From NCBI GenBank assembly GCA_037833965.1, contig AP031353.1, positions 24,864,501 through 24,928,500 of the forward strand: 64,000 nt of DNA. Direction: 5' to 3'. The notes under the pieces were generated by a model. It was not told the origin of the DNA, searched no databases, and was given only the letters and a program-made list of their open reading frames with translations. The stretch is from Marchantia polymorpha subsp. ruderalis. Its lineage: Eukaryota; Streptophyta; Marchantiopsida; Marchantiales; Marchantiaceae. Position numbers and translations under genes: made by a program. How positions within the stretch are numbered: position 1 is the first letter of the stretch; each line of letters opens with the position of its first letter. This document shows positions 13,694-63,281 of this stretch, one piece after another.

Positions 13694-13739
13694 AGCTAAT
13701 TGAGGAGTTGAACCTCATATATGGTCCGCCTTAGCTGCC
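13694..13739 (-). other. 46-nt tRNA-half-like core, unit A1
   Basis: On the minus strand it reads GGC, AGCTAA, a 12-nt linker, ATGAGG, TTCAACT, CCTCAA, TTAGCT. AGCTAA pairs with TTAGCT, and (A)TGAGG pairs with CCTCA(A) around the 7-nt loop, giving a stacked acceptor/T-arm-like hairpin. The first T-stem pair is lost in this copy (A opposite A). It is preceded by TTTTTGTAG and lies about 240 bases after the A1 frame. Confidence 0.85.
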
Positions 13740-13979
13740 TACAAAAATCTAAACAAAAATTTAATTTGAAAAAGAAACACACGTAAAAACTGTAAAATAT
13801 ATGTACAATTAGAAAAATTTTATAAGAAAATTTTGAATGTTTTTCCAATCATCTCTTAAAAATTGTAATTGCAAATTAGAAGAATCCAAAATTGCTTAAG
13901 AATAACAAGAAGTTGTAATTATACATATAGATATGTACTTTGAACATTAGTGAACATTATAATATTTAAAACCTAAAAC

Positions 13980-14114
13980 TCAGATGAGAAATATTGACAA
14001 GATAAACATTAGTATAAAATTCATAATAGAGTCATAATTATGCATCAAGGACAAAATTAGATATGAAATCAACACATAAAAGATGAAAATCAACGAGTCA
14101 TTCAAGAAATACAT
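13980..14114 (-). CDS. small hydrophobic protein, unit A1
   Basis: I chose the ATG at 14114, matching the A2 and A3 relatives (MSFLYEL there, MYFLNDS here); the open frame extends upstream to 14204. About 44 residues, almost wholly hydrophobic, with the subfamily word FYVLISYLILSL followed by a short polar YNYD-type turn and a second hydrophobic run, so a two-pass membrane hairpin is likely. TTATTGCAG just upstream resembles a splice acceptor, suggesting an intron in the leader. The TATA-like motif ATTAACCCATAAG is at about 14282-14300. The protein family is unrecognised. Expression is unproven. Confidence 0.4.
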   Translation of the reverse strand: MYFLNDSLIFIFYVLISYLILSLMHNYDSIMNFILMFILSIFLI

Positions 14115-14389
14115 GATTTTGAAGTAAAAAAAGTGCCTGCAATAAGATAAATAAGAACATGCAAAGTTGAAAAAGTACAGCATGTAACAAATAAACTTGA
14201 CCAATATAGCAATAAACTGAAAGGATTTTAAATGGAAATATTGAAGTATGTGTTTGAAATGAGGAACAACATTCAGTACTACACTTATGGGTTAATGCAA
14301 ATGCATTCTATTTTTAGATAGAATTGTTTTTGCTAAAAGCTTGAGAGTTTGGAGAATAAAGCGTAGAAGTATTTATACGAGTTGTTATA

Positions 14390-15060
14390 TATCTGTACAT
14401 TTGTGACGTATGGGTTTTAACTTCACCGGGTCATGTTATGGGTTTTGGCCAAATTTCAGTATGGTGGTATAGTTGGGATTAAGGATAAACTCGCTTTGTT
14501 GCGTACATGGATCCGATTGCTTTTAGCGCGTGAACTGGTGTATTCTTCAAAGAACATAATAAAAATAACCGTGAACCTTTTGTCTGCAACGATGCGGCTA
14601 TTCTCAGATTATCGCCTTTTGCTAAACCGGATTACGAGCTATACGCCTAGTGTGGTACATATTAAATGAGATTTAGCCGAGGAAAACCTGACATCGTTAT
14701 TATTTCTGTTCGACGTGATCTTATAAGTTCAGAGGTCTCTTATAAATCCCTTGACATTTGAAATTTGTTCCTGGAGGTCCTGGTTTTCATTATTAAAGTC
14801 TGTAAGATTGAGCGTAATTTTCCGCTGCAGTTAGTGAACTGGAGGATAAAGAATTGGGTACGTCTTGCAGATAGAATGTTGCAGTCCTATGCTGGGAAGT
14901 GCGTATACCAGTTATCTCTATACTCGGGATTACAATTTTTCTCTTCTCCACTGTCACTTTCTCAATACGAAGCGTGAAGTTCAGTTTCAGAGTTTAAAGC
15001 TACTAACGGCGTAAACCCTCTTCCGTTTATCTCCTGTTGCTTTACCAGGAATGTTACTTT
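14390..15060. other. non-unit sequence, possible decayed gene fragment
   Basis: GC content rises slightly here. The minus strand at about 14717-14825 reads as a polar, coiled-coil-like peptide (TDFNNENQDLQEQISNVKGF) just after a TGCAG that could be a splice acceptor. Plus-strand frames at 14433-14669 and 14765-14977 are no better supported. I recognise no family; this may be a remnant of a host exon. Confidence 0.25.
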
Positions 15061-15235
15061 TTTAATTTAATGTACACGCATGTATAACATGAATGAGATG
15101 AATTGATTTACTTTTGTCCAGAGAGCTTGGATTTTGATGGCAGTTTCCAAAATTTACATAATATCTTCATGATTTTAACTTTTGAGATCCTGAAACGAAA
15201 CAGGTTAAAAACACTACCCGAGACTATTAATTTAC

Positions 15236-15470
15236 GGCCTCATGGATCTCCACCTAAGGGGCAAGAAGGTAGGAGTACATCACAGAGTTGACAATCAATG
15301 ATGACCACATGCTACAATCACAACCTCCCCTACCCTAAGTGTGTAAGCATTTATTTGAGGCCTCATGGATCTCCACCTAAGGGGCAAAAAGGTACGAGTA
15401 CATCACACAGTTGACAATGAATGATTACCACATGATACGATCACAATCCCCCTACCCTAGGTGTGTAAGC
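15236..15470 (+). repeat. tandem duplication, two units of about 120 bp
   Basis: Two direct copies start at GGCCTCATGGATCTCCACCT (15236 and 15359, period 123) and run to GTGTGTAAGC. They differ at scattered positions, so the duplication is not very recent. No coding frame runs through them. Confidence 0.85.
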
Positions 15471-15689
15471 GTCATCATTAGTTCAACTTTTTAGTGCAGA
15501 TTATAATAATCCAACAGCTAGAAGAGCTTTTCTGATGGAAAAAATTAGATTTCCCTAAATATGTCAATGTGTCACCTGACTAAGCCATGTGATAGTAAAA
15601 ATCATGTTTAGCTATGCAGCAAATCATTTATGAATAAAAGAACAAGCTGCAAATATAAATGCTTGCATTTATTCAAAAAAGCTAAAAGA

Positions 15690-15946: not shown

Positions 15947-16069
15947 TTGCCATTCAAATCCTCTAATTATCTTCTGTTTATTTCTTCTAGTGCTTTATTA
16001 CTCTTTCTCTTTTTTATTTTACTTTCATTCTATTTTGCATTAAAGCAAGCTTTATTTCCGATCCTAATT

Positions 16070-16234
16070 ATGGCTTTTGTGCATGATTTGTTCGTAGTTT
16101 TGGTGACATTGTTGATATTTTTTGTATACCATGTTCTTGTAAATTATGAGATGAATACTTACATGCGAATTGCATATATGATTTTACTATGGGTACTTAC
16201 TGTTGTGTTTACACGAGCCTGGAAATTTTTTTGA
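16070..16234 (+). CDS. small two-pass hydrophobic protein, unit B1
   Basis: I chose the ATG at 16070 (MAFVHDLF) because units C and E start with the same ATGG(C/G)-type context; an open frame reaches back to 15947, but TTCTTCTAG inside it looks like a splice acceptor. About 54 residues: hydrophobic run 1 (LVTLLIFFVYHVLV), a polar turn NYEMNTYMR, and run 2 (AYMILLWVLTVVF), ending RAWKFF. NYEM and the terminal AW are the family signature. It is very close to B2. No known family recognised; likely a membrane hairpin if translated. Confidence 0.45.
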   Translation: MAFVHDLFVVLVTLLIFFVYHVLVNYEMNTYMRIAYMILLWVLTVVFTRAWKFF

Positions 16235-16472: not shown

Positions 16473-16518
16473 GGCAGCTAAGGCGGACCATACTTGAGGT
16501 TCAACTCCTCAATTATCT
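16473..16518 (+). other. 46-nt tRNA-half-like core, unit B1
   Basis: Preceded by TTTTTTGTAG. T-arm-like stem TTGAGG/CCTCAA and loop TTCAACT are perfect; the outer stem AGCTAA/TTATCT has one mismatch. Sequence downstream to about 16665 is shared with B2, so the duplicated unit runs past the core. Confidence 0.88.
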
Positions 16519-17363: not shown

Positions 17364-17519
17364 AACTGGATTGAAGTTAATTCACTGCCACATATAACCA
17401 ATGAAGATTCAAATGAAATGATTGGATTTTCAAATGAAAACAAAGAAGATTTTATACCTATGGATACAAGTTCTTACATTCTCACCTTATGGGTTTTTCT
17501 AAGTATTATTACGTAGTGC

Positions 17520-19276: not shown

Positions 19277-19322
19277 GGCAGCTAAGGCAGACCGTATTTG
19301 AGGTTTAACTCCTTTACTAGCT
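19277..19322 (+). other. 46-nt core, unit C3 (degenerate)
   Basis: Same 46-nt length and position after a TAG, but with a changed loop (TTTAACT) and mismatches in both stems (TTGAGG/CCTTTA and AGCTAA/CTAGCT). This is consistent with decay alongside its broken frame. Confidence 0.8.
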
Positions 19323-21143: not shown

Positions 21144-21189
21144 AGCTAACTGAGGAGTTGAACCTCAAAAATGGTCCGCCTTAGCTGCC
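21144..21189 (-). other. 46-nt tRNA-half-like core, unit C1
   Basis: Minus-strand core preceded by GATTTTTGTAG. Both stems are intact, the last T-stem pair becoming a T-G wobble; loop TTCAACT. It lies about 250 bases after the C1 frame. Confidence 0.88.
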
Positions 21190-21441: not shown

Positions 21442-21606
21442 TCATAACTGATTCCAAGCTTGTGAAAACACAATAGCTAGTAACCATAGTAAGAGTATCA
21501 ATGCATTTTTAGTTTCAATGGACACCTCATAGTTTAGTATAACATGAAAATCAAGTGAGATCAACAACAAAACTAGAACTATGAACAATTTGTTAAAAAT
21601 ACCCAT
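21442..21606 (-). CDS. small two-pass hydrophobic protein, unit C1
   Basis: I chose the ATG at 21606 (MGIFNKLF), homologous to C2; the frame opens at 21624. 54 residues: FNKLFIVLVLLLISLDFHVIL, a polar turn NYEVSIETKNA, LILLLWLLAIVF, ending SQAWNQL. Two membrane passes are likely. Upstream on the minus strand are ATAAAACCATAAGATGAG (21811-21828) and the conserved box TCATTAAGATTACCGCATCA (within 21961-21990), so promoter side, frame and core are all present: a complete unit. Confidence 0.5.
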   Translation of the reverse strand: MGIFNKLFIVLVLLLISLDFHVILNYEVSIETKNALILLLWLLAIVFSQAWNQL

Positions 21607-23061: not shown

Positions 23062-23295
23062 ATGGCGTTATTTTGCTATTTGTTGTTGATATCATTACAT
23101 TTTAAAATATTACTAACCTATGAGATGTCCATACACAGGCAGGTTGCATACCTACACATACTTTATTTCCTAGCTAATGTATTTACAAAATTTGAAATCG
23201 ATTCTAATTTAAATTTACAATTTTTTATAAATTTGAGCAATGGAAGTATTTTTCTGTGTACTTCTAACAGCAAAGGAAATGAAAAATGTAATTAA
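23062..23295 (+). CDS. small hydrophobic protein, unit E1
   Basis: I chose the ATG at 23062 (MALFCYLLLISL), which matches the start context of the other units. Family features are LLLISLHFKILLTYEMSIHRQVAYL and a second run LYFLANVF; after it the usual AW is replaced by TKFEIDSN and the frame runs on 25-30 residues, so the C-terminus is probably altered. The upstream ATGCAGAAACCCATAAGCAG motif is at about 22871-22890, and a leader block TGCGTGCTCTTGTAGCAGTG is shared with E2, E3 and E4. Confidence 0.4.
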   Translation: MALFCYLLLISLHFKILLTYEMSIHRQVAYLHILYFLANVFTKFEIDSNLNLQFFINLSNGSIFLCTSNSKGNEKCN

Positions 23296-23460: not shown

Positions 23461-23506
23461 GGCAGCTAGGGCGGATCATACTTGAGGTTCAACTCCTCAA
23501 TTAGCT
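23461..23506 (+). other. 46-nt tRNA-half-like core, unit E1
   Basis: Preceded by ATTTTGTA. The outer stem is AGCTAG/TTAGCT, where the last pair becomes a G-T wobble, so pairing is kept; inner stem TTGAGG/CCTCAA and loop TTCAACT are perfect. Downstream TATGCATGTTC is shared with E4. Confidence 0.88.
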
Positions 23507-26429: not shown

Positions 26430-26475
26430 GGCGGCTAAGGCGGATCATTTTTGAGATTCAACTCCTCAATTAGCT
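26430..26475 (+). other. 46-nt tRNA-half-like core, unit F
   Basis: Preceded by GATTTTTGTAG. The outer stem and loop are perfect; the inner stem is TTGAGA/CCTCAA with one mismatch at the loop-closing pair. The core is kept although the peptide frame upstream is broken. Confidence 0.87.
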
Positions 26476-27237: not shown

Positions 27238-27299
27238 TCTTAATAAAACAATATTTTGAATAGAACATAGAAAGCTTCGGTAATATGACAACATATGAA

Positions 27300-28192
27300 T
27301 GTATGGCTCCGAGTACACACTTGCTTCCTCATCTTCGGTCGACTTACACACGAAGATAAGCAGCAGCCAAAACGCAGAGTTGCAACTCATACTCAGCACT
27401 TGTTGGATCTTGTGCTCTTCTCTCTCATTTGTGTCAGGAATTCCTGACGTACCTTCAAAGCGCACCAAGGATATATACGGAGAAGACGAGGTGGGTTGCA
27501 GTGAGTCCGATGCAACAGATCCAAAGAATCTCGCAAAGATGCGCTCGTTGACCAGGCGGTTAATTGCAACGGTGAACTCTCTAATTGTACCGGTGATTTT
27601 AAAACTTTTGAATCTCGAACAACCGTTGTTCTCGTCAGGAATATCAAGCTAGTTGATGAAAAGAAAATGAATCAGAATTGTTTCAACTTGAAGATCAACT
27701 ACTCATTGCTGCCAGCTCAGCTGACAACAGTTCAGTAGCATAGTTTTCAAAAGATTGAAATTCTTCAAGGATGATGAGACCTCGAGGAATAGATATACGT
27801 TGTCAGTCTTCAGTAGATCGGATCTCTGTGACACATCCGTTGCGTAGTGTCTTTTCGGGCATTTCATGTGCCATGAAAGATTTCAAACTGATACGTGTCA
27901 AGATGCGAATCCAGCACAACTCCAAGCCCTGGAGATGAGTCAAATTTGAGCTCTGACATTGATTTATAGCGTCACGCTGCTAGTTGCAAGACACCGGTCC
28001 TTGCAACTAGGTCAAGATTCGCTGCCGAGTACCCAGTGCTACTTGTATAAATCCTCGCTGTGCAGACCTTTGAGCTGCATTTGCTGGAAGGTGAGGACCT
28101 CCAAGTTCTCTTGTGGTTTTGGAGCTTTCCACTCTGCACAAATCAACTAATCGGACCTCACGGCTATTATCGCTCCATTCTGTAGCCGACAT
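27300..28192 (-). pseudogene. unrecognised gene, copy A (minus member of divergent pair), truncated
   Basis: The minus strand carries GCSRFKSFKITGTIREFTVA, INRLVNERIF, SGIPDTNEREEHKI and MSCNSAFWLLLIFVC, in one frame interrupted by a stop. Similarity to copies B and C ends at the word SEPY (about 27303), where unrelated sequence leading to the plastid fragment begins; the 3' part of the gene is therefore missing. I recognise no family. The upstream segment (ATDVSQRSDLLKTDNVY...) is open in this copy. Confidence 0.6.
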
Positions 28193-28263
28193 CGGCCACC
28201 AAGTTTTGTGTGGTTCTGAGGTAATTCTCAGATCGAAGTGACAGTCTGTAGTTGGTCATTACG

Positions 28264-28419
28264 ATGGACTCCGGAACAGGGAATGATACTGAGTCTTACA
28301 TTTGTCAATTATTGGGCAAGAATATCATCGGCTACATCACGATTGCTATGTCTGGTTTGGGAGTCATTGTACCAGGATACTATTTTATCTCAAGGTTGTA
28401 TCAAATCAAAGTCATGTAG
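28264..28419 (+). pseudogene. unrecognised gene, copy A (plus member of divergent pair), truncated
   Basis: Starts MDSGTGNDTESYICQLLG, a hydrophilic cysteine-bearing head, then one membrane segment (YITIAMSGLGVIVPGYY), then ISRLYQIKVM, where it is cut by the 5' edge of unit B2. Copies B and C continue with ENQIRERYARHILHSQ-type sequence. The two members are divergently oriented with about 70 bp between their starts, so they may have shared a promoter. Confidence 0.6.
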
Positions 28420-28620
28420 CAAATAGCAGCAGTTTGCATAAACCCATAAGTTGAGAACGTGGAAGTGTTCAGCCAACCACCTAAATACTGCTAGAATTTG
28501 CCATTCAAATCCTCTTATCATCTTCTGTTTATTTCTTCTAGTGCTTTAATACTCTTTCTCTTTTTTATTTTACTTTCATTCTATTTTTCATTTAAGCAAG
28601 CTTTATTTCTGATCCTAATT

Positions 28621-28785
28621 ATGGCTTTTGTGCATGATTTGTTTGTAATTTTGGTGACATTGTTGATATTTTATGTATACCATGTTCTTGTAAATTATGA
28701 GATGAATACTTACATGCGAATTGCATATATGATTTTACTATGGGTACTTACTGTTGTTTTCAAACGAGCCTGGAAATTTTTTTGA
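28621..28785 (+). CDS. small two-pass hydrophobic protein, unit B2
   Basis: 54 residues from MAFVHDLF; it differs from B1 at only about three residues in this stretch (V/I, F/Y, T/K), ending FKRAWKFF. Layout: hydrophobic run, NYEMNTYMR turn, hydrophobic run, C-terminal RAWKFF. Upstream is the pyrimidine-rich TTCTTCTAG acceptor-like site as in B1. Unrecognised family. Confidence 0.45.
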   Translation: MAFVHDLFVILVTLLIFYVYHVLVNYEMNTYMRIAYMILLWVLTVVFKRAWKFF

Positions 28786-29027
28786 TTTGACCTTATCTTT
28801 TTTGTATACTTTTTTAATGTAAAGTTTGTATGATGTATTTAGGATGATAAAAGAAGCTTGTATTAATAGCAAGTTAAAAATTTTGCTTTGAGTTACAAAT
28901 TTGTAGAATTGTAAAAAAATTAAATGCAAAACCACAAGTAATATTTTTACATATCTTTACATCATTTTATTTTTTTTTCTCTTTTTTCTCTTTTTTTCGC
29001 ATTAACTATTTTGATTAGTTTTTTGTA

Positions 29028-29073
29028 GGCAGCTAAGGCGGACCATACTTGAGGTTCAACTCCTCAATTAGCT
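29028..29073 (+). other. 46-nt tRNA-half-like core, unit B2
   Basis: Perfect consensus: GGC, AGCTAA, GGCGGACCATAC, TTGAGG, TTCAACT, CCTCAA, TTAGCT. GGTTCAACTCC is also a near match to the tRNA B-box consensus. Preceded by TTTTTTGTAG. Confidence 0.92.
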
Positions 29074-29729: not shown

Positions 29730-30983
29730 TTAAGTTTTGTGTTGATTGCAATATCTAAAATCAAAAAATAGTTTTTCTTCTATCTTATATGTATAAAGAT
29801 CTACTACAAAATTCCATAGCAAGGATAACATATACAGAGTTTCAGAACTCAAATGTGCATTACTCACGAATCCTCTTGATTGATTTGAGCTAACAATTGA
29901 TTGACTTGAGCGAACACTGGTGCATCTTGAAAATTGAGAAACCTTCTCAAAGATTCTGTGTCCACCTTCTACCCTAATCCCCTTGCTGCTAACGAGTTGC
30001 TCCTTGCCATTGAAGCGGAAGTTTGTGTCGCTATGTGAATCCAGGATGTTGCTTCTCCCCAACTCGATAAACAGTATTCTTTCCACATTCACCAAACTTT
30101 GGAGGTTCAAAATCCTGTGACTGTATGGCTCCAAGTACACACTTGCTTCCTCATCTTCGGTCGACTTACAGTCGAAGATAAGCAGCAGCCAAAACGCAGA
30201 ATTGCAACTCATACTTAGCACTTGTGGGATCTTGCACTCTTCTCTCTCACTTGTGTCAGGAATTCCTGACCTACCTTCCAAGCGCACCAATATATATACG
30301 GAGAAGACGAGGTGGGTTGCTGCGAGTCCGATCCAACAGAATCAAAGAATCTCGCAATGATGCGCTCGTTGACCAGGCGGTTGGTTGCAACGGTGAACTC
30401 TCAAATTGTACCGGTGATTTGAATCTCGAACAATCGTTTTTCTCGTCAGGAATATCAAGCTCGTTGATGAAAAGAAAATGAATCAGAATTGTTTCAACTT
30501 GAAGATTAACTACTCATTCCTGCCAGCTCAGCTGACAGCAGTTCAGTTGCATACTTTTCAAAAGATTGAAATTCTTCAAGGATGATGAGACCTCGATAAA
30601 TAGGTATGCGTTGTAAGTCTTCAGTAGATCGGATCTCTATGACACATCCGTTGTGCAATGTCTTTTCGGGCATTTTAAGTGCCATGGAAGATTTCAAACT
30701 GATACCTGTCAAGATGCGAATCCAGCACAACTCCAAACCCTGGAGATGGTCTCAGATCGATGAATCAAAACTGAGCACTGACTTTGATAAAAACCGTCAC
30801 GCTGCTAGCTGCAAGACACTGGTGCTTGCAATGGTCAAGATTCGCTTCCGAGTACCCAGTGCTACTTGTATAAATCCTAGCTGTGCAGACCTTTGAGCTG
30901 CATTTGATGGAAGCTGAGGACTTCCAAGTTCTCTTGTGTTTCGGAGCTTTCCACTCTGTACAAATCAGCTGATCGGACCTCAC
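29730..30983 (-). pseudogene. unrecognised gene, copy B (minus member of divergent pair)
   Basis: The longest piece (29730-30290) contains SGIPDTSEREECKIPQ, MSCNSAFWLLLIFDC, SLVNVERILFIELGRSN, NFRFNGKEQLV and RIFEKVSQFSRC, all shared with copy C, then a tail not found in C. The upstream pieces (about 30506-30983) share SDQLIC.EWKAP and KVCTARIYTSSTG. A small deletion relative to A and C shifts the frame near 30410, so the gene is broken. Hydrophobic WLLLIFDC may be a membrane or core strand. Family unknown. Confidence 0.6.
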
Positions 30984-31085
30984 GGCTATTATCGCTCCAT
31001 TCTGTAGCCGACATAGGCCACCAAGTTTTTTGTAGGTCTGAGGTGATTCTCAGATCTAAGCGACAGTCTGTAGTTGGTCATTACG

Positions 31086-31380
31086 ATGGATTCTGGAACA
31101 GGGAATGATACTGAGTCTTGCACGTGTCAATTACTGGGCAAGAATATCATCGGCTACATCACGAATGCTATGTCTGCTTTAGGAATCATTGTAACAGAAT
31201 ACTAAATATTTCAAGGTTGTATCAAATCAAAGTCATTGAAAATCAAATTAGAGAACGTTATGCGAGGCACATTCTACACTCACAAGCAGTAGGAAATTTC
31301 TGTGTCAAATTCAATGGAGTAGAAAGATATACGCCTCGAGATGTTCTGGTGCAGAACCCATCGGGCAGGTATATGATATG
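31086..31380 (+). pseudogene. unrecognised gene, copy B (plus member of divergent pair)
   Basis: MDSGTGNDTESCTCQLLGKN then a membrane segment, interrupted by an early stop after GIIVTEY, then in another frame ISRLYQIKVIENQIRERYAR, HILHSQAVGNFCVKFNG and ERYTPRDVLVQNPSGRYM. A foldback at 31385 replaces the end seen in copy C. Its start faces the minus member about 100 bp away. Confidence 0.6.
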
Positions 31381-31384
31381 AAAG

Positions 31385-31425
31385 TTTACCTTTTGATTGC
31401 TATCATATAGCAATCAAAAGGTAAA
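31385..31425. repeat. perfect foldback, 19-bp arms and 3-nt loop
   Basis: TTTACCTTTTGATTGCTAT, CAT, then the exact complement. Copy C has only a single arm-like sequence (about 60808-60828) at this place, so the second arm is an inverted duplication gained in copy B. It ends the plus member of the pair. Confidence 0.92.
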
Positions 31426-31439
31426 TTTCTACAACTGAT

Positions 31440-33230
31440 GCAGCTTCAACCTCGGAAGGTCCAGAGAGAGATGCCATTGAAAGTTTGGAATCAGAAAAGA
31501 CGGAAGAGCTTGCAGTTGTTAATTAAAGCTAAAAGTCGTCATGACATTGGAGAAGTGAATTATGATCCTTGATTATCCACAGATATTTAACGGCTGGAGT
31601 CCAATCTACTGGCACATCACAAAATTTCTGTAGTTTCATGACATAGTGCAGCATGCTTCATCATATTCAATGTTTAAAGTTTTCCAATGTTCTCAACTTC
31701 CAGGTTGAAATTTGTTCAAGCATGTCATATTGGAATATGGACTGGAATTGGATCGATGAGTAGTCCCGCTAGTCCCGGCCTCATTCTCAAACCCTTCCCG
31801 GAGTTGGGTAACCCCGTTAGCGCGAGCCACCCATGGGAATAGATTCGCATTACTCATGATACACACGCTGAGCAGCAAATCACCAGCTCCATTCTAGCTC
31901 TTTAAGTAATAAAAGTTGTGTTAATTCTTTTGCAGTGCTTAGATGTTTTTACTTCTTTGCTTTATCTTCTGTCACATTTCAGAGCCCTATACATGGGAGA
32001 AGATTTCGATAATGCAATGGAGGTTTCTATAAGTGCATGGCTTTATTATTATAAATAAGGCACTCTAGACATATATCCCCACGTATGAGGAGAGGGAACA
32101 TTAAAGTAGCTAGTTTGCCAAGTTAAATACGCTACAGTTGTCATTAGTTGTTGTCGCTCCCGTTTTCAGAGTTCCACTCGTTGACAGAAATTGAATTAAA
32201 TACCTCTCTTCTTCTTACGTCGTCAGTAGCATGTACTAGTATTGATCATGGTTCTCGATTTGTGCGTGTCATCCTTGCGCAGGGGTCATGCTAGATTTCT
32301 CTGTATCGTTCCAATTATATCGGATATCCCCGAAGGAACATCAACTTTATAGAAGAGCCGAATATCGGCATCAAGACTTATTCTATCAGTCCGCTATGAA
32401 GAAAGTGAACAAATCACTCCATGATGATATATTCTATCAATATTAGTGATTGTTGATTTCATTAAATGTGGCTGGTGTACTGAAACCAAATCAACCTCCA
32501 CATATAACATGGCAAATGCACTGAGACTGGAGACTTCAATAAGCTCCATGAATTCGAGATACTTGTAGCGTGCATAGAATAGACGACATATCAAGATATC
32601 TGGATTTTACTTCAATAGCTGAGATACCCCATGGTCCACGTCAACTGTACAGACATCTTAGACGGGGGCTGTTAAAATTGTAACTGCCTCCGGTGATTTC
32701 GAAATAGTCATTTCCGTTTGGTAATCTTACAAATTCAGATTTCAGGATGAAAATCTGTCGAGGTTATTTCCTTGACATGCTCATAATAATATTCTAAAGC
32801 AGCAGCCCTCTTGTACATAGACTTAAACGCGATGTGTCCTGGTTACGTATTGAAACATACTTTGAAATTAGAGTTCATTATCTTCCGACTTAATGACACA
32901 TTGTTGAATGATAATCGATACAAGTCGACTGTGTTCATAAACTCGTCGTCGTGACAATGAAGAAGTTGGTTTTCTTCAAAGCCTACAGTTGGAAGTAAAA
33001 TGATATTTAAAATCTCTGCTAAGAATGAAACTTTTTAATAAGAAGATGATAGATGATTTATGAATGAGAATATATTACTTTTAGGTAATGTTCACAAATA
33101 TCAATCCTATCAAGGATTTAAAGAGAATTAGATCTGTAGCAAAAACAATTTTGGGATCGACACTTAATAAAAAAAACTAGTTAGAAAACTTTCTTGCATT
33201 CACGTCGTGATAGTAAAAGTCATGTTTAGG
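31440..33230. other. 3' flank of copy B; decayed gene-like sequence
   Basis: 31440-32100 matches 60830-61510 (3' of copy C), including GAGTTGGGTAACCCCGTTAG, so the duplicated segment is longer than the gene pair. On the minus strand 32394-32594 is open (ICRLFYARYKYLEFMELIEV), and about 32640-32760 reads SEFVRLPNGNDYFEITGGSY, which looks protein-like. Neither is recognised. The rest is unassigned. Confidence 0.4.
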
Positions 33231-33253: not shown

Positions 33254-33418
33254 TCATAAATGATTCCAAGCTTGTGAAAAAAAAATAGCTAGTAACCATA
33301 GTAAAATTATCAATGCATTCTTAGCTTCAATGGACATCTCATAGTTTAATATAACATGAAAATCAAGTGAGATTAACAGCACAACCAGAACCATGAACAA
33401 TTTGTTAAAAAGACCCAT
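33254..33418 (-). CDS. small two-pass hydrophobic protein, unit C2
   Basis: I chose the ATG at 33418 (MGLFNKLFMVLVVLLISL). 54 residues, with DFHVILNYEMSIEAKNALI and LLWLLAIFFSQAWNHL. It is the cleanest match to C1 and C3. On the minus strand the TATA-like AAAACCATAAGAAGAG is at about 33591-33606 and the conserved upstream box at 33719-33748. I found no core in the expected 300 bases after it, so either it is lost or this copy was cut at its 3' side. Confidence 0.45.
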   Translation of the reverse strand: MGLFNKLFMVLVVLLISLDFHVILNYEMSIEAKNALIILLWLLAIFFSQAWNHL

Positions 33419-35456: not shown

Positions 35457-35591
35457 ATGTCTTTTTTGTATGAATTGATGATTATCATGTTTTATGTGTT
35501 GATTTCATATCTGATTTTGTCTCTTCTGTATAATTTTGACTTAATTTTGACCTTTATATTTATGTTTATATTGTCTATTTATCTCATTTGA
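35457..35591 (+). CDS. small hydrophobic protein, unit A2
   Basis: I chose the ATG at 35457 (MSFLYELMIIM); a longer open frame to 35376 lacks an ATG. 44 residues, with FYVLISYLILSLLYNFD and a second run LTFIFMFILSIYLI. It is closely related to A3 and A1. TTAAACCATAAGTG at about 35271-35284 is the TATA-like motif, preceded by ATCTAAAAATAGAAAGTAGT, which is identical before A3. Confidence 0.42.
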   Translation: MSFLYELMIIMFYVLISYLILSLLYNFDLILTFIFMFILSIYLI

Positions 35592-35778: not shown

Positions 35779-35844
35779 TAAACCCTAAACCCTAAACCCT
35801 AAAACCCTAAACCCTAAACCCTAAAACCCTAAACCCTAAACCCT
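35779..35844. repeat. interstitial telomere repeats (CCCTAAA)n
   Basis: About nine plant-type telomere units in a regular 7-7-8 pattern (every third unit CCCTAAAA, so a 22-bp period), flanked on both sides by (AT)n. It lies in the spacer of unit A2; the aligned spacer of A3 (about 46700-46740) has no such tract. Confidence 0.97.
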
Positions 35845-35937: not shown

Positions 35938-35983
35938 GGCAGCTAAGGCGGCCCGTTTTTGAGGTTCAACTCCTCAATTAGCT
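35938..35983 (+). other. 46-nt tRNA-half-like core, unit A2
   Basis: Both stems and loop TTCAACT are perfect; the linker is changed (GGCGGCCCGTTT). Preceded by GATTTTTGTAG. It lies about 350 bases after the frame because of the telomere and AT insertions. Confidence 0.9.
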
Positions 35984-43194: not shown

Positions 43195-45108
43195 TTATCT
43201 ATCCAAGTCTTCGAAGTTTGGTAAGTGACCACGCTGACCCTCAAACCTTTGCTTGTCATCTGCTGACGATTGAGTCTGCTCATCCTCCAGCGTTGTGAAA
43301 GGGTCTGCAAAAGCACTGGAATTCCTGTCCTCAGAATCAGCATCTGTAGCCGTATTCTCACAGCAGCCTGTTCGCTGTCTTAACTCAAACACCTGTTCTT
43401 CCGCTATCTTCTTACAAACTTCACGCTCATTTACCTCATGAGGCTTCACCTCGGTGCAAAGACTGTGACTGTGTCCTTGAAAGTCAGGTATCTTCTCTCT
43501 AGCTATATCATCATGGACTAGACGTTCTTGGCCTTCAAGCTCTCCCTTTCTGTTGCTCTCATGGCCAAAATCTCGCACCTCAACTACTTTCTGCTTGCCT
43601 ACCTCACGGAAGGTCAAGCTCTCTTGGACTTCCTGCACCGTCTCCTTATTGACCTGGTAGCTCAGATTGAGCTCCCCAACTTCGATCACAATCTGCTTGT
43701 CGATCTTGGTGCAGACACTATCCTTGCGCCCGCCGACCATCATCTCTCTGTCCACCTCTTTACAAGCTGCAATTTCATGGACTTCAACGTCTTCATCAGT
43801 CATCCGCTCGCTTGTCTCTCTGTCTACTACTTGGATCAACACGTTTTCGGGAAAGTCACGGGAAGCTCCATGCACCAACTCTTCGGCGCTGTCATTACAA
43901 CCTCTATCCTCTTCTACATCGGTCACAATGAGGCCAACAATCTCTTGGCTAGTTGGCTCCTCCGTACTTCCAAGCATGTTCTCACTTGCTTTCGACAATG
44001 GCTTACTAACAACAGAATCTCGAGCCTTTGCAGAAGTACTCGTAACTACACCTAATTCACAACAGGCAAACGACGGAGCCTGAGCTCGAGGGCTCACGGA
44101 ACATGCACTCTTGAGTACTCCAGACAGTGGCTCCATACGCAAGCTATGTACTCTCTCTACTGGAAACGAGGCTGAGGTACTTGTGATGGGATTTAGATCT
44201 GCACTCTGTTCTCTATTTGACTCTATACAAAGGTGGAGCACCAGATGTATCTGCTCATCAGATTCCACATGCACTGCTTCGAAGTGGCTACTTTCGGGTG
44301 GAACACTTGGAATATCTGCTTGGACCCTATCTTCTGACCTACCTCCAAATGCTAATGAGTCTTGCACAGACCTAGCTATTGACTTCCCATCAGAAGACTT
44401 ACTGGTTGACAACTCGATTGAAGAACTGTCATGCTCGTTCAATACGACATGCCAACCATTTACAAGGGGTACTTCGGCCTCCAAGATTTCCTTGCTCTTG
44501 TTAACTGTTGGGTCGGCCATTTTTGCCTCACGCAGCGCCTCTTTTGGACTAGATTGAAGGTGGTCTACACCAATCCCACCGGGATCTTGGGTAGTTCCAG
44601 CCTGTGGTTCTTGCTTGGTAAGGCTTTGAAACCTAGCCCGAGTCCGAAAGTTCCTCCGGTGCTTTCGTGACCAGCTTTTAACAAAAAGTTTATCTAGCTC
44701 ATCTGAGATGTGCTCCGGAATACTTTCAAGAGCTTCGTCCCCTTTGTATACTTTATGCTTTACTACTCGAACATCTGGAGCAAACGCTTCAACCTCTACT
44801 TCGGCACAAAATTCTAATACTCGTTTCTTCCCCCGCTCTCTCAATCTCCTAGTCCAGCAGAGACCTTCTCCTCGTTCCTCATGTCCTTCTTGTGAAGAGA
44901 CCGAACTCATGCCTTTCTCTCGCTTGAGAGACCAAGACTCGTTCACTTGTTTTTTAGCCTGAACTCTGGATTTTCCCCGGTTTCCTTTCTGCTGCAGCCG
45001 CCGTTTAGATGTCTTCTTATGGCGTCCAGAACCAATTTGAACCTCCCAATGGATCGCTTGACTCTCGTCGAGCAATTTCTTCTTTTCCGACTTCAGCCGT
45101 TCTTTCAC
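43195..45108 (-). CDS. large exon of an unrecognised, mostly disordered protein
   Basis: About 638 open codons without an early ATG (first at 44916), so I read it as an internal or last exon. Residues 1-60 are Lys/Arg-rich. About 95-165 is the best-ordered part (VEAFAPDVRVVKHKVYKGDE, ISDELDKLFVKSWSRKHRR). The middle is Ser/Thr/acid-rich. About 430-600 shows degenerate repeats of some 18 residues with the pattern K-x-x-V-x-E-V (KQIVIEVGEL, KETVQEVQES, KQKVVEVRDF, EEQVFELRQR). No enzyme motif or membrane segment. It differs strongly in composition from the AT-rich flanks. Family unknown; a nuclear or chromatin-type host gene is possible. Confidence 0.5.
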   Translation of the reverse strand: MKERLKSEKKKLLDESQAIHWEVQIGSGRHKKTSKRRLQQKGNRGKSRVQAKKQVNESWSLKREKGMSSVSSQEGHEERGEGLCWTRRLRERGKKRVLEFCAEVEVEAFAPDVRVVKHKVYKGDEALESIPEHISDELDKLFVKSWSRKHRRNFRTRARFQSLTKQEPQAGTTQDPGGIGVDHLQSSPKEALREAKMADPTVNKSKEILEAEVPLVNGWHVVLNEHDSSSIELSTSKSSDGKSIARSVQDSLAFGGRSEDRVQADIPSVPPESSHFEAVHVESDEQIHLVLHLCIESNREQSADLNPITSTSASFPVERVHSLRMEPLSGVLKSACSVSPRAQAPSFACCELGVVTSTSAKARDSVVSKPLSKASENMLGSTEEPTSQEIVGLIVTDVEEDRGCNDSAEELVHGASRDFPENVLIQVVDRETSERMTDEDVEVHEIAACKEVDREMMVGGRKDSVCTKIDKQIVIEVGELNLSYQVNKETVQEVQESLTFREVGKQKVVEVRDFGHESNRKGELEGQERLVHDDIAREKIPDFQGHSHSLCTEVKPHEVNEREVCKKIAEEQVFELRQRTGCCENTATDADSEDRNSSAFADPFTTLEDEQTQSSADDKQRFEGQRGHLPNFEDLDR

Positions 45109-45329
45109 CCGCTCGCTTCTCCTTTCATCCCTTCTTCTTCGTCAGAGCTCTGTTTTCCGTATAACTAGCCTCCAAAGGCCGACATTTCCGCACCCTCTAT
45201 CGAAAACTGCCGCATTCTCTCGCTTCAGAGCTCCGATTATCGACGAACTTATTCATCCCCACCGCACAGTGCTCGAACGAGGGAAATGCTCACGCCCATG
45301 TCACACAGATCGCCTCCCTTCCTCTTCCT

Positions 45330-45880
45330 CTTCCCTTTCCCCTGTCTTCCTCTTGCTCTTCCTCCTCATCCTCACTCTCTGAATTATCCTCGCTCATGAT
45401 CTCGCTCTTTTTCTCTTCCATCCCTGTCCCGTTCATGATCTCTTCCACGGTCTTTCTCCTTTAATCGCGACTTCTGACGATCCTTCTCCTCTCGTTCTCT
45501 CTCCTTGTCCCTGTCTTTGTCTCGCTCCGCGACCTTCTCTCTATCTTTCTCCCGCTCCTTCTCGCTCATGTTCCTTCCCTCTATCCCTGTCGTGTTCTCT
45601 GATTCTACCATCCTTTTCCTTCTCTGGGTCCTTTGCCCTATCCTTCTTCTTCTCGGAATCTCGATCTTTCTCTTTAGACTTCAGCTTCTCCTTCTCGCGA
45701 ATTTTCTCCCTTTCCTTCTCTCGCTCCCTATCCTTATCCCGTATTTTATCCCGCTCCCTCTCTTTCTCTCTATCTTTCTCCTTCTCAATGGTCCGGAGAC
45801 CCTCTGCCCTCTGCCTTTCCTCCTCGTCCTTCACCTGCGACTTCTCTCTTGCCAGGCCCGTTCTTGATACTTAACAGATA
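45330..45880 (-). CDS. alternating-charge (RE/RD/KE) exon region upstream of the 638-codon frame
   Basis: Two overlapping minus-strand frames (45541-45834 and 45384-45611) both encode long RE/KD/RD runs (EKDREKERERDKIRDKDRER; EKEREKDREKVAERDKDRDK), followed by an acidic piece SEDNSESEDEEEEQEED. Such runs are typical of nuclear pre-mRNA splicing proteins and some helicase N-termini, but the low complexity prevents a family call. The switch between frames means an intron, or a frameshift and loss of function. It may be the 5' part of the same gene as 43195-45108. Confidence 0.4.
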
Positions 45881-46406: not shown

Positions 46407-46550
46407 ATGTCTTTTTTGTATGAACTGATGATTTTCATGTTTTTCATGTTTTATGTGTTGATTTCATATCTAATTTTGTCTCTTCTGTATAATTATGACT
46501 TAATTTTGACTTTTATATTTATGTTTATATTGTCTATTTGTATCATTTGA
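46407..46550 (+). CDS. small hydrophobic protein, unit A3
   Basis: I chose the ATG at 46407 (MSFLYELMIFMFFMFYVLIS). 47 residues; compared with A2 it has three extra residues in FMFFMFYVL from a short in-frame duplication of CATGTTTTT. It has YNYD at the turn and LTFIFMFILSICII at the end. The TATA-like TTAAACCATAAGTG is at about 46221-46234. The sequence before it, ATCTAAAAATAGAAAGTAGT, is identical to that before A2. Confidence 0.42.
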   Translation: MSFLYELMIFMFFMFYVLISYLILSLLYNYDLILTFIFMFILSICII

Positions 46551-46809: not shown

Positions 46810-46855
46810 GGCAGCTAAGGCGGACCATTTTTGAGGTTCAACTCCTCAATTAGCT
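46810..46855 (+). other. 46-nt tRNA-half-like core, unit A3
   Basis: Perfect consensus with linker GGCGGACCATTT. Preceded by CATTTTTGTAG. 3' flank CCTGAATTCAT is shared with A1 and A2. Confidence 0.92.
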
Positions 46856-47077: not shown

Positions 47078-47123
47078 GATAGCTAAGGCAGAATTTAATT
47101 GAATTTCAGTACCTAAATTAGCT
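47078..47123 (+). other. 46-nt core, degenerate, orphan
   Basis: AGCTAA and TTAGCT of the outer stem are intact and the spacing is still 46 nt, but the inner stem and loop have changed (TTGAAT, TTCAGTA, CCTAAA). It follows TAGAATGTA and precedes TATGCATATCC, a flank like E1 and E4, so it is the 3' end of a lost E-type unit. Confidence 0.7.
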
Positions 47124-48713: not shown

Positions 48714-48778
48714 ATCTTTGCGCTTGGGGCAATGAAGCAGTTAGCGAGGTGAAACCGAGACGCGTTAATTTCTGAGTG
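48714..48778 (+). pseudogene. U4 snRNA fragment, 3'-truncated, copy 2
   Basis: ATCTTTGCGCTTGGGGCAAT, then GTTAGCGAGGTGAAACCGAG and ACGCGTTAATT, with similarity to copy 1 fading in the U6-pairing region. It shares GTGAAACCGAGACGCGT with copy 1, which may reflect this organism's own U4 sequence. It covers less of U4 than copy 1. Confidence 0.75.
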
Positions 48779-49371
48779 ACTATTAGCATCCATGCACTCA
48801 TAATGTCTTTTATCCTCCTCCGCTCCATGCGGTGCACGATTTTACTACTGAGTTTCAGGACCTGAGACAAGACCACAAAGTTTCAAAAATGACTTGAAAC
48901 AAGACCACAAAATGAGTGCACCTCTCCCTCTTCCACTTGCGCGCGGTAAGAAGCAATTACCCCATAAATCTTTGCCTTTTGGAAAAACGGGCCACCAGCA
49001 GGTTCATGAGGCGTGTATATTCTGGCTCAGATCCTTGAAGTTCAGTATTTTGAAGAAGGATTTTGCATCAAGTCAAATCAAAACGATCTTTTCATATTCT
49101 GATTAGCATTAAATCAACCAAATCCAGAAGTTTACAATCCAATTAGCGACGAAAATTATCTACTAAATGAAGTTATTTCAGAACCTTTGGCGAAGCTTGC
49201 AAACAACTAGGTACTCTTCGACGCTACTCAGATAATAATGTTAAACTTTGAAATTTAATTTATAATTATTTTCACAATTGGAACAAACTTAAATCATAAT
49301 TGTCTAAAAAATTATTACCTATTGAAGTTATTGAAAAATAAAAATATGAGAACCAATCAATATTTTAACTG

Positions 49372-55981: not shown

Positions 55982-56027
55982 AGCTAATTGATTAGTTGAA
56001 CCTTAAGTATGGTCTGCCTTAGCTGCA
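55982..56027 (-). other. 46-nt core, unit E4
   Basis: On the minus strand the outer stem AGCTAA/TTAGCT is perfect and the loop is TTCAACT, but the inner stem has mismatches (TTAAGG/AATCAA). Length is still 46. Preceded by TTTTTGTAT rather than GTAG. Confidence 0.82.
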
Positions 56028-58620: not shown

Positions 58621-58639
58621 AATTCAGATATGTAAATGA

Positions 58640-59055: not shown

Positions 59056-59278
59056 ATGGAATTTGGTAATAGAAACTTTCACTTGGAAGATAGAAGAAAA
59101 ATCATATTGTACTTCTAGATATTTTAATCAGAAGAAAACGTTGTACATGAAAGTGAGTTTCATCCACAAAGTTTTGTGTTGATTGCAATATCTAGAATCA
59201 CAAAAAAAAAATTCTTCTATCTTACATGTAGAAAACTTCTACTACAAAATTCCATAGCAAGGATAACGTATACAGAGT

Positions 59279-59945
59279 TTAGAAACTCAAATGTGCATTA
59301 CTCACGAATCCTCTTGATTGATTTGAGCTAACACGGGTGCATCTTGAAAATTGAGAAACCTTCTCAAAGATTCTGTGTCCACCTTCTACCCTAATCCCCT
59401 TGCTGGTAACGAGTTGCTCCTTGCCATTAAAGCGGAAGTTTGTGTCGCTCTGTGCATCCAGAATGTTGCTTCTCCCCAACTCGATGAAGAGTATTCTTTC
59501 CACATTCACCAAACTTTGGAGGTTCAAAGTCCTGTGACTGTATGGCTCCGAGTACACACTTGCTTCCTCATCTTCGATCGACTTACACACGAAGATAAGC
59601 AGCAGCCAAAACGCAGAGTTGCAACTCATACTCATCACTTGTGGGATCTTGTGCTCTTCTCTCTCGTTTGTGTCAGGAATTCCTGACCTACCTTCCAAGC
59701 GCACCAAGCATATATACGGAGAAGACGAGGTGGGTTGCTGTAAGTCCGATACAACAGAATCAAAGAATCTCGAAAAGATGCGCTCGTTGACCAGGCGGTT
59801 GATTGCAACGGTGAACTCTCTAATTGTACCGGTGATTTTAAAACTTTTGAATCTCGAACAACCCTTGTTCTTGTCAGGAATATCAAGCTCGTTGATGAAA
59901 AGAAAATGAATCAGAATTGTTTCAACTTGAAGATGAACTACTCAT
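59279..59945 (-). CDS. unrecognised gene, copy C (minus member of divergent pair), main exon
   Basis: About 220 codons are open without interruption on the minus strand, the best-preserved of the three copies: ILIHFLFINELDIPDKNKGC, FKITGTIREFTVAINRLVNE, FSRFFDSVVSDLQQPTSSSP, SGIPDTNEREEHKIPQ, MSCNSAFWLLLIFVC, SLVNVERILFIELGRSN, NFRFNGKEQLV, RIFEKVSQFSRC. An ATG-led part starts at 59707. All three copies have a stop codon just before this stretch, so it is either an exon start or an old shared lesion. No family recognised. Confidence 0.45.
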
Positions 59946-59955
59946 TGCTGCCAGC

Positions 59956-60411
59956 TCAGCTGACAAAGTTCAGTAGCATAGTTTTCAAAAGATTGAAATT
60001 CTTCAAGGATGATGAGACCTCGAGGAATAGATATGCGTTGTCAGTCTTCAGTAGATCGGATCTCTGTGACATATCCGTTGTGCAATGTCTTTTTGGCTGC
60101 ATTTCAAGTGCCATGGACGATATCAAACTGTACCTGTCAAGATGCGAATCCAGAACAACTCCAAGCCGTGGAGATGGTCTCCGATCGATGAGTCGAATTT
60201 GAGCACTGACGTTGATATATACCGTCACGCTGCTAGTTGCAAGACACCGGTCCTTGCAATGGTCAAGGTTCGCTGCCGAGTGCCCAGTGCTACTTGTATA
60301 AATCCTCGCTGTGCAGACCTTTGAGCTGCATTTGCTGGAAGGTAATGACTTCCAAGTTCTCTTGTGGTTCGGAGCTTTCCACTCTGCACAAATCAGCTGA
60401 TCGGACCTCAC
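59956..60411 (-). CDS. unrecognised gene, copy C, upstream open frame
   Basis: 151 codons from ATG at 60411: MRSDQLICAEWKAPNHKRTW, KVCTARIYTSSTGHSAANLD, LATSSVTVYINVSAQI, SDLLKTDNAYLFLEVSSSLK. Its copy A and B counterparts are open only in part and in different frames, so only segments are reliable. It lies directly upstream of the main exon on the same strand and about 100 bp from the start of the plus member. Confidence 0.35.
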   Translation of the reverse strand: MRSDQLICAEWKAPNHKRTWKSLPSSKCSSKVCTARIYTSSTGHSAANLDHCKDRCLATSSVTVYINVSAQIRLIDRRPSPRLGVVLDSHLDRYSLISSMALEMQPKRHCTTDMSQRSDLLKTDNAYLFLEVSSSLKNFNLLKTMLLNFVS

Positions 60412-60513
60412 GGCTATTATCGCTCCATTCTATAGCCGACATAGGCCACCAAGTTTTGTGTAGGTCTGAGGTGATTCTCAGATCTAAGCGACAGTCTGTA
60501 GTTGGTCATTACG

Positions 60514-60822
60514 ATGGATTCCGCAACAGGGAATGATACTGAGTCTTGCATTTGTCAATTATTGGGCAAGAATATCGTCGGCTACATCACGATTGCTATG
60601 TCTGCTTTGGGAGTCATTGTACCAGGATACTATTGTATCTCAAGGTTGTATCAAATCACAGTTATTGAAAGTCGAATTAGAGAATGTTATGCGAGGCACA
60701 TTCTACACTCACAAGCAGTAGGAAATTTCAGGGTCAACTTCAATGGAGAAGAAAGATATACGCCTCGAGATGTTCTGGTGCAGAACCCATCGGGCAGGTA
60801 CATGATAGCAGTCAAAAGATAA
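60514..60822 (+). CDS. unrecognised single-pass protein, copy C (plus member of divergent pair)
   Basis: 102 residues: a cysteine-bearing head MDSATGNDTESCICQLLG, one membrane segment about residues 21-42 (VGYITIAMSALGVIVPGYY), then a soluble basic tail ISRLYQITVIESRIRECYAR, HILHSQAVGNFRVNFNGEER, YTPRDVLVQNPSGRYMIAVK. It is the only intact copy of three (A is cut, B interrupted). The short divergent spacing from the minus member suggests a shared promoter. No family recognised. Confidence 0.45.
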   Translation: MDSATGNDTESCICQLLGKNIVGYITIAMSALGVIVPGYYCISRLYQITVIESRIRECYARHILHSQAVGNFRVNFNGEERYTPRDVLVQNPSGRYMIAVKR

Positions 60823-60829
60823 ATTTCTA

Positions 60830-62200
60830 CAACTGATGAAGCTTCAACCTCGGAAGGTCCAGAGAGAGATGCCATTGAAAGTTTGGAATCTGAAAAGACG
60901 GAAGAGCTTGCATTTTTTCATTAAAGCTAAAATTCGTCATGACATTGGAGGAGTGAAGTATGATCCTTGATTATCCACAGATATGTAGCGGCTGGAGTCC
61001 AATCTACTGGAACATCACAAAGTATCTGTAGTTTCATGACATAGTGCAACATGCTTCATCATATTAAATGTTTGAAGTCTTCCAATGTTCTCAACTTCCA
61101 GGTTGAAATTTGTTCAAGCATGTCATCCTGGAATATGGACTGGAATTGGATCGATGAGTAGTCCCGGCCTCATTCTCAAACCACTCCCGGAGTTGGGTAA
61201 CCCCGTTAGCGCGAGCCACTCATGGCAATAAATTCACACTACTCATGATAAACACGCTGAGCAGGAAATCACCAGCTCCATTGTGGCTCTTTAAGTACTA
61301 AAAGTTGTGTTGATTCTTTTGCAATGCTTAGATGTTTTTACTTCTTCGCTTTATCTTCTTTGCTTTATCTTCTGTTACATTTTGGAGCGCTATACATGGG
61401 AGAATATATCGATAGAGCAAAGGAGGTTTCTCTATGTGCATGGCTTTAATATTATTAAACAGGCTCTCTAGACATATTTCCCCACGTATGAGGAGAGGGA
61501 ACACTAAATGTAGCTGATGAATTGAAATATAAGGTATATCGTTATGCCTGAAAAGTTTCAAGATACTCGAATGTAAGATATGCTTGCATATTCAGATTCT
61601 TGAAGTTTACTTCAAAAGCTGGGAGACCTCATAGTTCGCATCAACTCTATGGACATCTTAGACGGCGTTGGGAAAATCTTGCAGCGAGGTTTCGAAAATG
61701 CCACGGTTGACTTCGAGACACACACTTCAATATTTTCTTTATCCAAATCTGAATTTCAGGTTGAAATTATGTGGAAGGAAATGCCTCGACCAAATGATGA
61801 TAGATATCCATTCCAGGAATCATTCCACTAGCTTCAACACAATGTGTCCTGGTCTCCTGTATAGAACACAATTTTGTAGTTTGACCAGTAACAGCCATCA
61901 ATAAACTTGTAGTGTTGAAAGCCAAGCTTCTTGCAGGAAACTCCATCCATGAAGTCTTCCATGAAGTGTTACTCCAAGTATATCACTCCAAGTATATCTT
62001 TCCAATGTGAAACATAAGATAAAATTAAGAAGTTAAAATGTCTTCATCTTACAGCACTGCAAACGCAAAATTTTTGACATACAACTTACAATGATTGTCA
62101 CTCAGATGATAAAAAGTACAGAACTACATTTGAGAGCACTGCAAATCGTGTTCACATAAAACTTACATAATATTACATGATTTTGACCTCGGATGCTCAT
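60830..62200. other. 3' flank of copy C, unassigned
   Basis: 60830-61510 matches 31440-32100 (3' of copy B), including GAGTTGGGTAACCCCGTTAG and CCCCACGTATGAGGAGAGGG. About 61600-61870 is loosely related to 32600-32850. Short frames (61649-61831, 61668-61904) overlap each other and are not supported. Confidence 0.45.
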
Positions 62201-62214
62201 GGCTGGCTCACGCT

Positions 62215-63000
62215 AACGGGGCTACCCAAACCCACTAGGGCTGATTTATCTCCACCCTCGTGATGGTGATAATTGTGTTTCTAGCCCTTAATTTCAACTA
62301 AACTTGTTGCCAGCTTGCAAACCCGCCTGGTTGATTTAGGTTTAAATCGGCGCATACTGAAAAGAAATTCATTTTCGCGGTTTTATAATTTTTTTTACTT
62401 AAAACCGTTCATACCAGGAAATAAATACATGGTCGAAAGAGCAAAGATGAATAATTTTAAAATTATTTGTCATTATGATTATGACATCATTGTACAGCAT
62501 AACAGCATTAAAAAAGTTTGCAAGTTTTTACTGCGCGACCACTGATGTATTATTCCTCTTAGGGAAGCACCGGTTTTAATGATTTTAGATGGAAATTACA
62601 GTCTCTGAAGGTAAAGATAGAAATAATACTTATGTTTGAAACTTTAGGGTTTGAATGTACGAATTATATCCATTCGTTTGAAAATTTCTGGGATTTTTAT
62701 TCAAAATACTCTAATTTCATTTCTTTATTTCTAGGATATATCCGTAGAAGTGCATTATCCTTTCTCTATTTTCCTCCTTATATCTATCAAGTTTTCATAC
62801 TTCAGCTGACTTTCCTTTGTTCATCGTAATTATGGCTTTCCGTATAACTAGTTCATAGTTTTACGTTCTTCGTTAGACTCGTTTGAATCTTATTTTAAAC
62901 AAACCAATGAAATGACTTCAAACATGCAATTTGCAAATCTGATAAAATTAGGCATGCTTTAAACATGCCATTTCAACATGATAAACCTACATAGTAGCTT
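62215..63000 (+). repeat. unit H2, decayed relative of the small-protein unit
   Basis: Partner of H1. It begins GGGGCTACCCAAACCCACTA, directly after CTCACGCTAACG, which is the complement of the GTTAGCGCGAG seen at about 61205 and 31816. It keeps GTAATTATGGCTTTCC and AACCAATGAAATGACTTC...ACATGCAATTTG but has no open hydrophobic frame. About 180 bp near 62370-62560 are absent from H1. Confidence 0.65.
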
Positions 63001-63235
63001 TAACATTATTTTTTATTTTTTTAATACAATTTTTTATTTTGGAAATTACTTTTTGAATTTTTAAATTTTAATTCATCGTTAAATTTACTTTAAAAAATTA
63101 TATCTAATTATTAAAAAAAATTTCATCAAATTTTGTTAGTTTTAAAGAAAACATTTTTGTTAATATTTAAAAATTAAATCATAAAAATGTAATTGATTTT
63201 GTTAAAATTACGGATACAACATTTGATCAACGTGT

Positions 63236-63281
63236 AGCTAATTGAGAAGTTGAATCCCAAGTGCGATCTGTCTTAGCTGAA
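63236..63281 (-). other. 46-nt core, unit E5, with a compensatory pair change
   Basis: Minus strand: TTC, AGCTAA, GACAGATCGCAC, TTGGGA, TTCAACT, TCTCAA, TTAGCT. Relative to consensus the loop-closing pair changes from G-C to A-T on both sides and another pair becomes a G-T wobble, so the fold is kept although the sequence drifts. The outer stem is perfect. Confidence 0.85.

Follow-up and report, generated by a model that had tools for sequence, protein, structure and literature searches.

Conserved stem-loops occur in the 3′ untranslated regions (3′ UTRs) of gene families. In a group of plant L1 long interspersed nuclear elements (LINEs), according to an extract of the study concerned, the last 45 nucleotides (nt) have a divergence of 0.144, compared with 0.570 overall, and form a hairpin with compensatory changes (PMC3747384). 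The mascRNA and menRNA, as an extract of a second paper relates, are cut from MALAT1 and MEN-beta (PMC11693755). Here we describe a 46-nt core that recurs 12 times in a 64,000-nt stretch of the Marchantia polymorpha subsp. ruderalis genome (contig AP031353.1, positions 24,864,501 to 24,928,500 of the forward strand; hereafter the window, with coordinates counted from its first nucleotide), and that belongs to a duplicated unit of about 800 nt. The explanation that we tentatively favor makes the core a cis-acting 3′-UTR hairpin shared by duplicated plant genes for membrane microproteins of about 44 to 54 residues.

The 46-nt core and its repeated unit

The cores lie at 16473-16518, 19277-19322, 23461-23506, 26430-26475, 29028-29073, 35938-35983, 46810-46855, and 47078-47123 on the plus strand, and at 13694-13739, 21144-21189, 55982-56027, and 63236-63281 on the minus strand; we refer to each copy and its unit by the first coordinate of the core. 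An earlier note on this DNA had placed all 12 at these sites and strands (its "28028+1000" is 29028) and had called their length invariant, and so it is: every copy is 46 nt long and the 12 align without a gap, at a mean column identity of 90%. The 29028 copy is consensus-like and the 47078 copy the most diverged; the 3′ end reads TTAGCT in 10 of 12 copies, TTATCT in one, and CTAGCT in one. A weight matrix built from the 12 cores scores them at 40 to 81 and nothing else in the window above 4, compared with a best score of −2 among six simulated 64-kb strands; a covariance model run with filters off gives the cores 58 to 77 bits (by construction, the same 12 having been used to build it) and the rest of the window at most 12.3 bits (E 0.32). 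The repeated 46-nt core is real, strongly conserved, and far above chance.

No part of the unit, which measures 802 and 808 nt in the 16473 and 29028 copies, is as well conserved as the core. Among 10 aligned units, the mean pairwise divergence of the core is 0.139, that of the preceding 36 nt 0.269, and that of the stretch from −600 to −37 0.459, and the core is less diverged than the rest in all 45 pairs; identity along the unit runs at 0.42-0.67 from −600 to −37 and at 0.70-0.76 in stretches covering those 36 nt, and reaches 0.83-0.89 over the core itself. Over all 12 copies the mean pairwise divergence of the core is 0.167. A profile of the unit finds 25 matches in the window, namely 11 that reach the core, 2 upstream pieces belonging to the 35938 and 46810 units, and 12 that end before the core; the 47078 unit, which has kept only about 30 nt upstream and lost the rest, is not matched by the profile. 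Where duplicates share flanking sequence, the core has changed more slowly than the flanks in the 21144/26430 pair (P 0.007) and in the 13694/35938/46810 set (P 0.0095-0.043), in a comparison whose global aligner permits many gaps and so yields low flank divergences.

The unit begins abruptly in two unrelated contexts, at 28420 and 35245. Beyond the core, copies of the same flank group can be matched for 150 to more than 500 nt in some pairs (16473 and 29028 are alike to +196, 23461 and 55982 beyond +500). Core-crossing matches between flank groups number 58; of these, 26 end at +44 to +51 and 31 continue beyond +60, through AT-rich DNA at a median identity of 61%.

Folding of the core

The core probably folds as an irregular hairpin whose support is moderate: columns 4-8 pair with 42-46, 9-11 with 35-37, and 13-17 with 26-30, closing an 8-nt loop. 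This is the RNAalifold consensus, and single-sequence folds of several cores agree with it. Of its 156 cells (pairs in all copies) 95.5% are paired, and all 13 pairs form in 7 of the 12 copies, 13694, 21144, and 46810 among them; pairs are broken at 6/44 in 16473, at 15/28 in 35938, at 13/30 in both 47078 and 63236, and at 10/36, 11/35, and 13/30 in 55982. Both sides have changed in 4 pairs and 6 cells: i) GC to AU at 11/35 in 63236 and at 13/30 in 19277; ii) CG to UA at 16/27 in 26430 and 63236, and CG to AU at the same pair in 47078, with U-G in 23461; and iii) CG to UA at 17/26 in 47078.

None of 500 shuffles reached the observed number of paired cells, covarying pairs, or covarying cells. 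When columns were permuted only where their consensus bases agree, so that both the consensus and the relatedness of the copies are preserved, p was 0.0012 for paired cells, 0.024 for covarying pairs, and 0.006 for covarying cells; refolding each permuted alignment gave 0.021 (pairs) and 0.0095 (cells), and omission of the diverged 47078 copy gave 0.025 and 0.007. Pair 14/29 is G-U in all 12 copies, where the opposite strand would give C-A, and this favors the strand as given.

The earlier note had proposed a different structure, in which the core mimics the top half of a tRNA: stacked acceptor and T-arm helices in a block plan AGCTAA, 12 nt, TTGAGG, TTCAACT, CCTCAA, TTAGCT, which could serve as an RNase P/Z processing signal or an RNA polymerase III (Pol III) internal promoter. 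That plan, with its stack of 6 + 6 base pairs, is exact in the plus-strand copies 29028, 35938, and 46810 and inexact in the other nine; the broader idea of a structured RNA survives, with moderate support from covariation, in another hairpin than the one proposed. On the literal level TTCAACT matches the T-loop consensus and GGTTCAACTCC that of the Pol III B box, but the nearest A-box-like stretch ends about 11 nt before GGTTCAACTCC, a spacing shorter than that of tRNA genes. The 12 copies of the window give the acceptor/T-arm fold no covariation: its 12 pairs are complete in 6 of 12 copies, the other 6 having unpaired cells; 92.4% of 144 cells are paired (11 are not) compared with a shuffle mean of 92.3%; the one doubly changed cell is equaled by 189 of 500 shuffles and the covariation score by 172 of 500; and under column permutation p is 0.75 whether covarying pairs or covarying cells are counted, and 0.11 for the share of cells that pair. 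The sole doubly changed T-arm pair, 27/35 in 63236, is equally well explained by the alternative fold through its pairs 16/27 and 11/35. No tRNA is found in the window by ARAGORN, and Rfam has no tRNA-like match either across the window or in the DNA surrounding the 29028 core, the only gathering-level Rfam matches in the window being one U6-like and one U4-like sequence, both outside the cores. A tRNA mimic, whether cut by RNase P/Z or acting as an internal promoter, thus seems to us hardly probable at all, and the case shows that a T-loop and B-box look, though convincing, can be coincidence when the covarying helix is a different one.

In 29028 and 46810 the T-arm-like helix and the GGACC/GGUUC helix have nearly equal predicted energies (−9.9 and −10.0 kcal/mol). 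A two-state RNA switch lying 3′ of a new plant microprotein gene family, with mutually exclusive inner helices and a common outer stem, can be imagined on this basis and is very unlikely. A long microRNA-like hairpin was considered and rejected: predicted stems reach into the flanks in 29028, 16473, 63236, and 47078, and the folding energy is low in 29028 only. On the opposite strand with 30-nt flanks the lowest z is −2.27, likewise in 29028.

The upstream reading frame and competing explanations

Ahead of the core and on the same strand, 7 of the 12 units carry an open reading frame (ORF) of 44 to 54 codons, or 77 in the 23461 unit. The 54-residue ORFs are at 28621-28785 (+, 29028 unit), 16070-16234 (+, 16473 unit), and 21442-21606 (−, 21144 unit); those of 44 residues are at 35457-35591 (+, 35938 unit) and 13980-14114 (−, 13694 unit); one of 47 residues, with a 9-nt in-frame length difference, is at 46407-46550 (+, 46810 unit); and the 77-residue ORF, of the same family with its stop further on, is at 23062-23295 (+, 23461 unit). 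An eighth open member, again of 54 residues, is at 33254-33418 (−). The frame is broken in the 19277, 26430, 55982, and 63236 units, which are likely pseudogenes, and in the 47078 unit it has gone with the lost upstream part. The ORF stop precedes the core by 165 nt in 23461, whereas the six other copies have spacings of 238, 240, 242, 252, 259, and 346 nt. The repeated unit, the order of ORF then core on one strand, and the strong conservation of 46 nt are direct observations. The 35938 unit also contains, between ORF and core, a short array of plant telomere-like TAAACCC (35779-35844).

The ORF peptide is very hydrophobic, with about two possible membrane spans by eye. Compared with substitution-matched permutations, peptide similarity is in excess in frame 0 (combined p 1.1e-5 over 4 contrasts) and shows no excess in frames 1 and 2 (0.20 and 0.64); the ratio of nonsynonymous to synonymous differences per site (pN/pS) lies at 0.26-0.43 in 5 comparisons within groups; all 15 pairs compared show a lower frequency of gap openings inside the ORF; and its length differences, of 9 and 18 nt, are in frame. 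Judged from sequence, the ORF appears to be translated now or to have been so recently, a conclusion that is moderately supported by coding evidence which is mixed and on balance positive.

On the explanation we favor, each duplicated gene would encode a membrane microprotein of about 44 to 54 residues, ORF and core would be carried on one transcript, and an RNA-binding protein would bind the hairpin and thereby set mRNA stability, localization, or the 3′ end. The arrangement is that expected of a 3′-UTR element: on the same strand an open ORF precedes seven cores and a broken one four, the remaining core (47078) following a truncated unit, and pairing is kept by compensatory change of moderate strength. 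We wish to stress the points that weigh against it. As to the gene, the open ORF at 33254-33418 is part of a copy of the unit that has no core; comparisons between groups give a pN/pS of 0.59-0.71; a scan for mismatch periodicity gives no coding signal (3 of 529 windows past the 1% level, with 5.3 expected); the composition-matched count of changed codons has p 0.061, which leaves peptide similarity as the one test of the three with a clear coding signal; the DNA divergence of the ORF, 0.411, is barely under the 0.459 of the unit; Pfam yields no convincing family for the 8 members (one member has E 0.044); and PDB, queried with one ORF, yields no relative. As to the hairpin, the fold was chosen from the same 12-sequence alignment on which it was tested; without 47078 and 19277, p rises to 0.03 (cells) and 0.12 (pairs); the double changes score equally well on the opposite strand; folding energies are unremarkable, with z between −1.04 and 0.09 in 8 of 12 cores, and with 30-nt flanks only 29028 is low (z −3.4), the other 11 lying between −1.43 and 0.97; and constraint specific to the core is not significant in the 16473/29028 pair (P 0.20) or among 23461, 55982, and 47078 (P 0.33-0.88).

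The sequence just ahead of the core suggests another reading, which we consider possible and rather doubtful: the core as the start of a spliced exon, with the T-rich tract and AG at its boundary as a 3′ splice site and the hairpin partly incidental. In the 29028 copy, for example, a T-rich, splice-acceptor-like stretch with GTAG at the boundary occupies 28992-29027 (+); the T fraction at −20 to −3 averages 0.62 over the 12 copies (0.39-0.83) compared with a background of 0.34, and as high a fraction occurs in 1.4% of background stretches, or in 1.1% of the background stretches that precede AG; every copy has TAG at the boundary (10 copies), AG at core positions 4-5 (11 copies), or both; and the 36 nt ahead of the core are, as noted, better conserved than the remaining unit (0.269 compared with 0.459). 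A conserved donor is not seen upstream, where the three GT columns that lie ahead of the T-rich tract and are common to at least 7 of 10 aligned copies have no preceding AG (a result that depends on the alignment); frame 2, the core frame free of an early stop, shows no protein constraint; and 46 nt conserved with paired changes exceeds the needs of a splice acceptor. A terminal coding exon was rejected, the QLRRTILEVQLLN-stop frame being open in most copies with no excess of silent change (frame 2, p 0.32-1.00 in 7 pairs); one pair, 23461/55982, reaches p 0.01 in frame 1, which a stop codon interrupts within the core. Rejected too was a splice donor at the 5′ block, which reads GTAAG in 16473, yet ATAAG in its sister 29028. 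AG followed by GTTCAA or GTTTAA, at core columns of about 25-31, could form a weak splice donor and is kept in 8 of 10 aligned units.

The abrupt unit starts and the 26 of 58 between-group matches that end close to the last base of the core recall instead a 3′ recognition hairpin of a non-autonomous retroelement, as in the stringent plant L1 LINEs and short interspersed nuclear elements (SINEs), with the units as its copies; the divergence contrast, 0.139/0.459, is also near the 0.144/0.570 given for the L1 group in the extract of PMC3747384, and here too the 3′ end is far more conserved than the body and carries compensatory changes. We nevertheless regard this as unlikely: the copies lack the expected end, with a tail, at the hairpin or immediately beyond it, those of one group being alike past the core and 31 of the 58 between-group matches continuing too, if weakly; no reverse transcriptase was seen in the unit, and neither poly(A) nor a repeat tail where the core ends; 12 further partial unit matches end before the core; and a small ORF with coding behavior precedes it. 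A Helitron 3′ end has a hairpin, then CTRR at the end, then T; none of the 12 cores has CTRR followed by T, and this candidate was rejected. Modest covariation and ordinary folding energies would also suit a constraint at the DNA level, such as a protein-binding site, or local gene conversion that keeps the cores alike with no role for RNA; conversion tracts are unlikely to be confined, in every one of 45 pairs, to one and the same 46-nt segment, and the paired changes together with the invariant 14/29 G-U point to RNA and to one strand, so that we hold this account to be distinctly unlikely.

Beyond its first 10 kb the window consists mostly of AT-rich DNA with a great many old duplications. 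Positions 1-9600, at about 50-57% GC, hold the frames of a Ty3/gypsy long terminal repeat retrotransposon (gag, protease-like, reverse transcriptase, RNase H, integrase), and a third open frame, of 907 codons and with no convincing Pfam match, follows the integrase frame. The U6-like sequence is at 32237-32339 (−, 80.5 bits) and the U4-like one at 39345-39490 (+, 69.5 bits), the latter at a junction of duplicated blocks; block 12827-13297, related to the one at 39345, resumes inside the U4-like part, and a further U4-like sequence at 48714-48832 (+, 36.2 bits) is below the gathering score. Recent duplicates, about 89-93% identical, at 27296-28415, 29732-32111, and 59169-61515 contain a second small hydrophobic ORF (MDSxTGNDTES...; 51 codons at 28264, longer at 60502-60819). 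A 648-codon open frame at 43198-45870 (−), of about 47-49% GC, has arginine/glutamate/lysine-rich (SR-like) frames upstream; two frames scanned from this region gave no convincing Pfam match.

Comparison with described hairpins

A degenerate core pattern, too narrow to fit more than 4 of the 12 cores, matched nothing in viral contigs and nothing in prokaryote contigs, collections that do not cover plants; for the surroundings of the 29028 core Rfam returned a single match, to MIR848 on the opposite strand and at chance level; a search of literature text with a 14-nt core stretch found no match; and the plant snRNA upstream element had 9 matches with up to 2 mismatches where 16.1 were expected. 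If the explanation we favor is true, a structured RNA element of a length invariant in these 12 copies is common to fast-duplicating genes for membrane microproteins, neither the element nor the gene family being matched by Rfam or, convincingly, by Pfam, and the question arises what fixes 46 nt while the surroundings drift to about 45% divergence.

The mascRNA and menRNA, as an extract of PMC11693755 describes them, resemble the structure proposed in the earlier note, in that each is a short tRNA-like module within a longer transcript; they have analogues of the acceptor stem and the T stem-loop plus a longer equivalent of the anticodon stem, whereas in the core the T-arm helix is without covariation and 12 nt replace the remainder. 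The 3′ hairpin shared by the plant L1-clade LINE group and the ZmSINE2 and ZmSINE3 elements is, in the extract of PMC3747384, like the core in size (about 45-50 nt), in its compensatory changes, in occurring in plants, and in being conserved far above the rest of the element; unlike those 3′ ends, the sequence here runs past the core within groups, with no LINE gene or tail seen, and the unit has a small membrane-protein ORF, the comparison being one of described features. With the general kind of 3′-UTR stem-loop found in gene families the core shares its place behind an ORF, its single-strand orientation, and the conservation of both sequence and pairing, and differs in that no Rfam family answers to the core and no Pfam name to the host genes. 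A conserved hairpin near the 3′ end of a gene is thus a known kind of element, of which this core and its host genes, unnamed in the libraries searched, would be a further instance.

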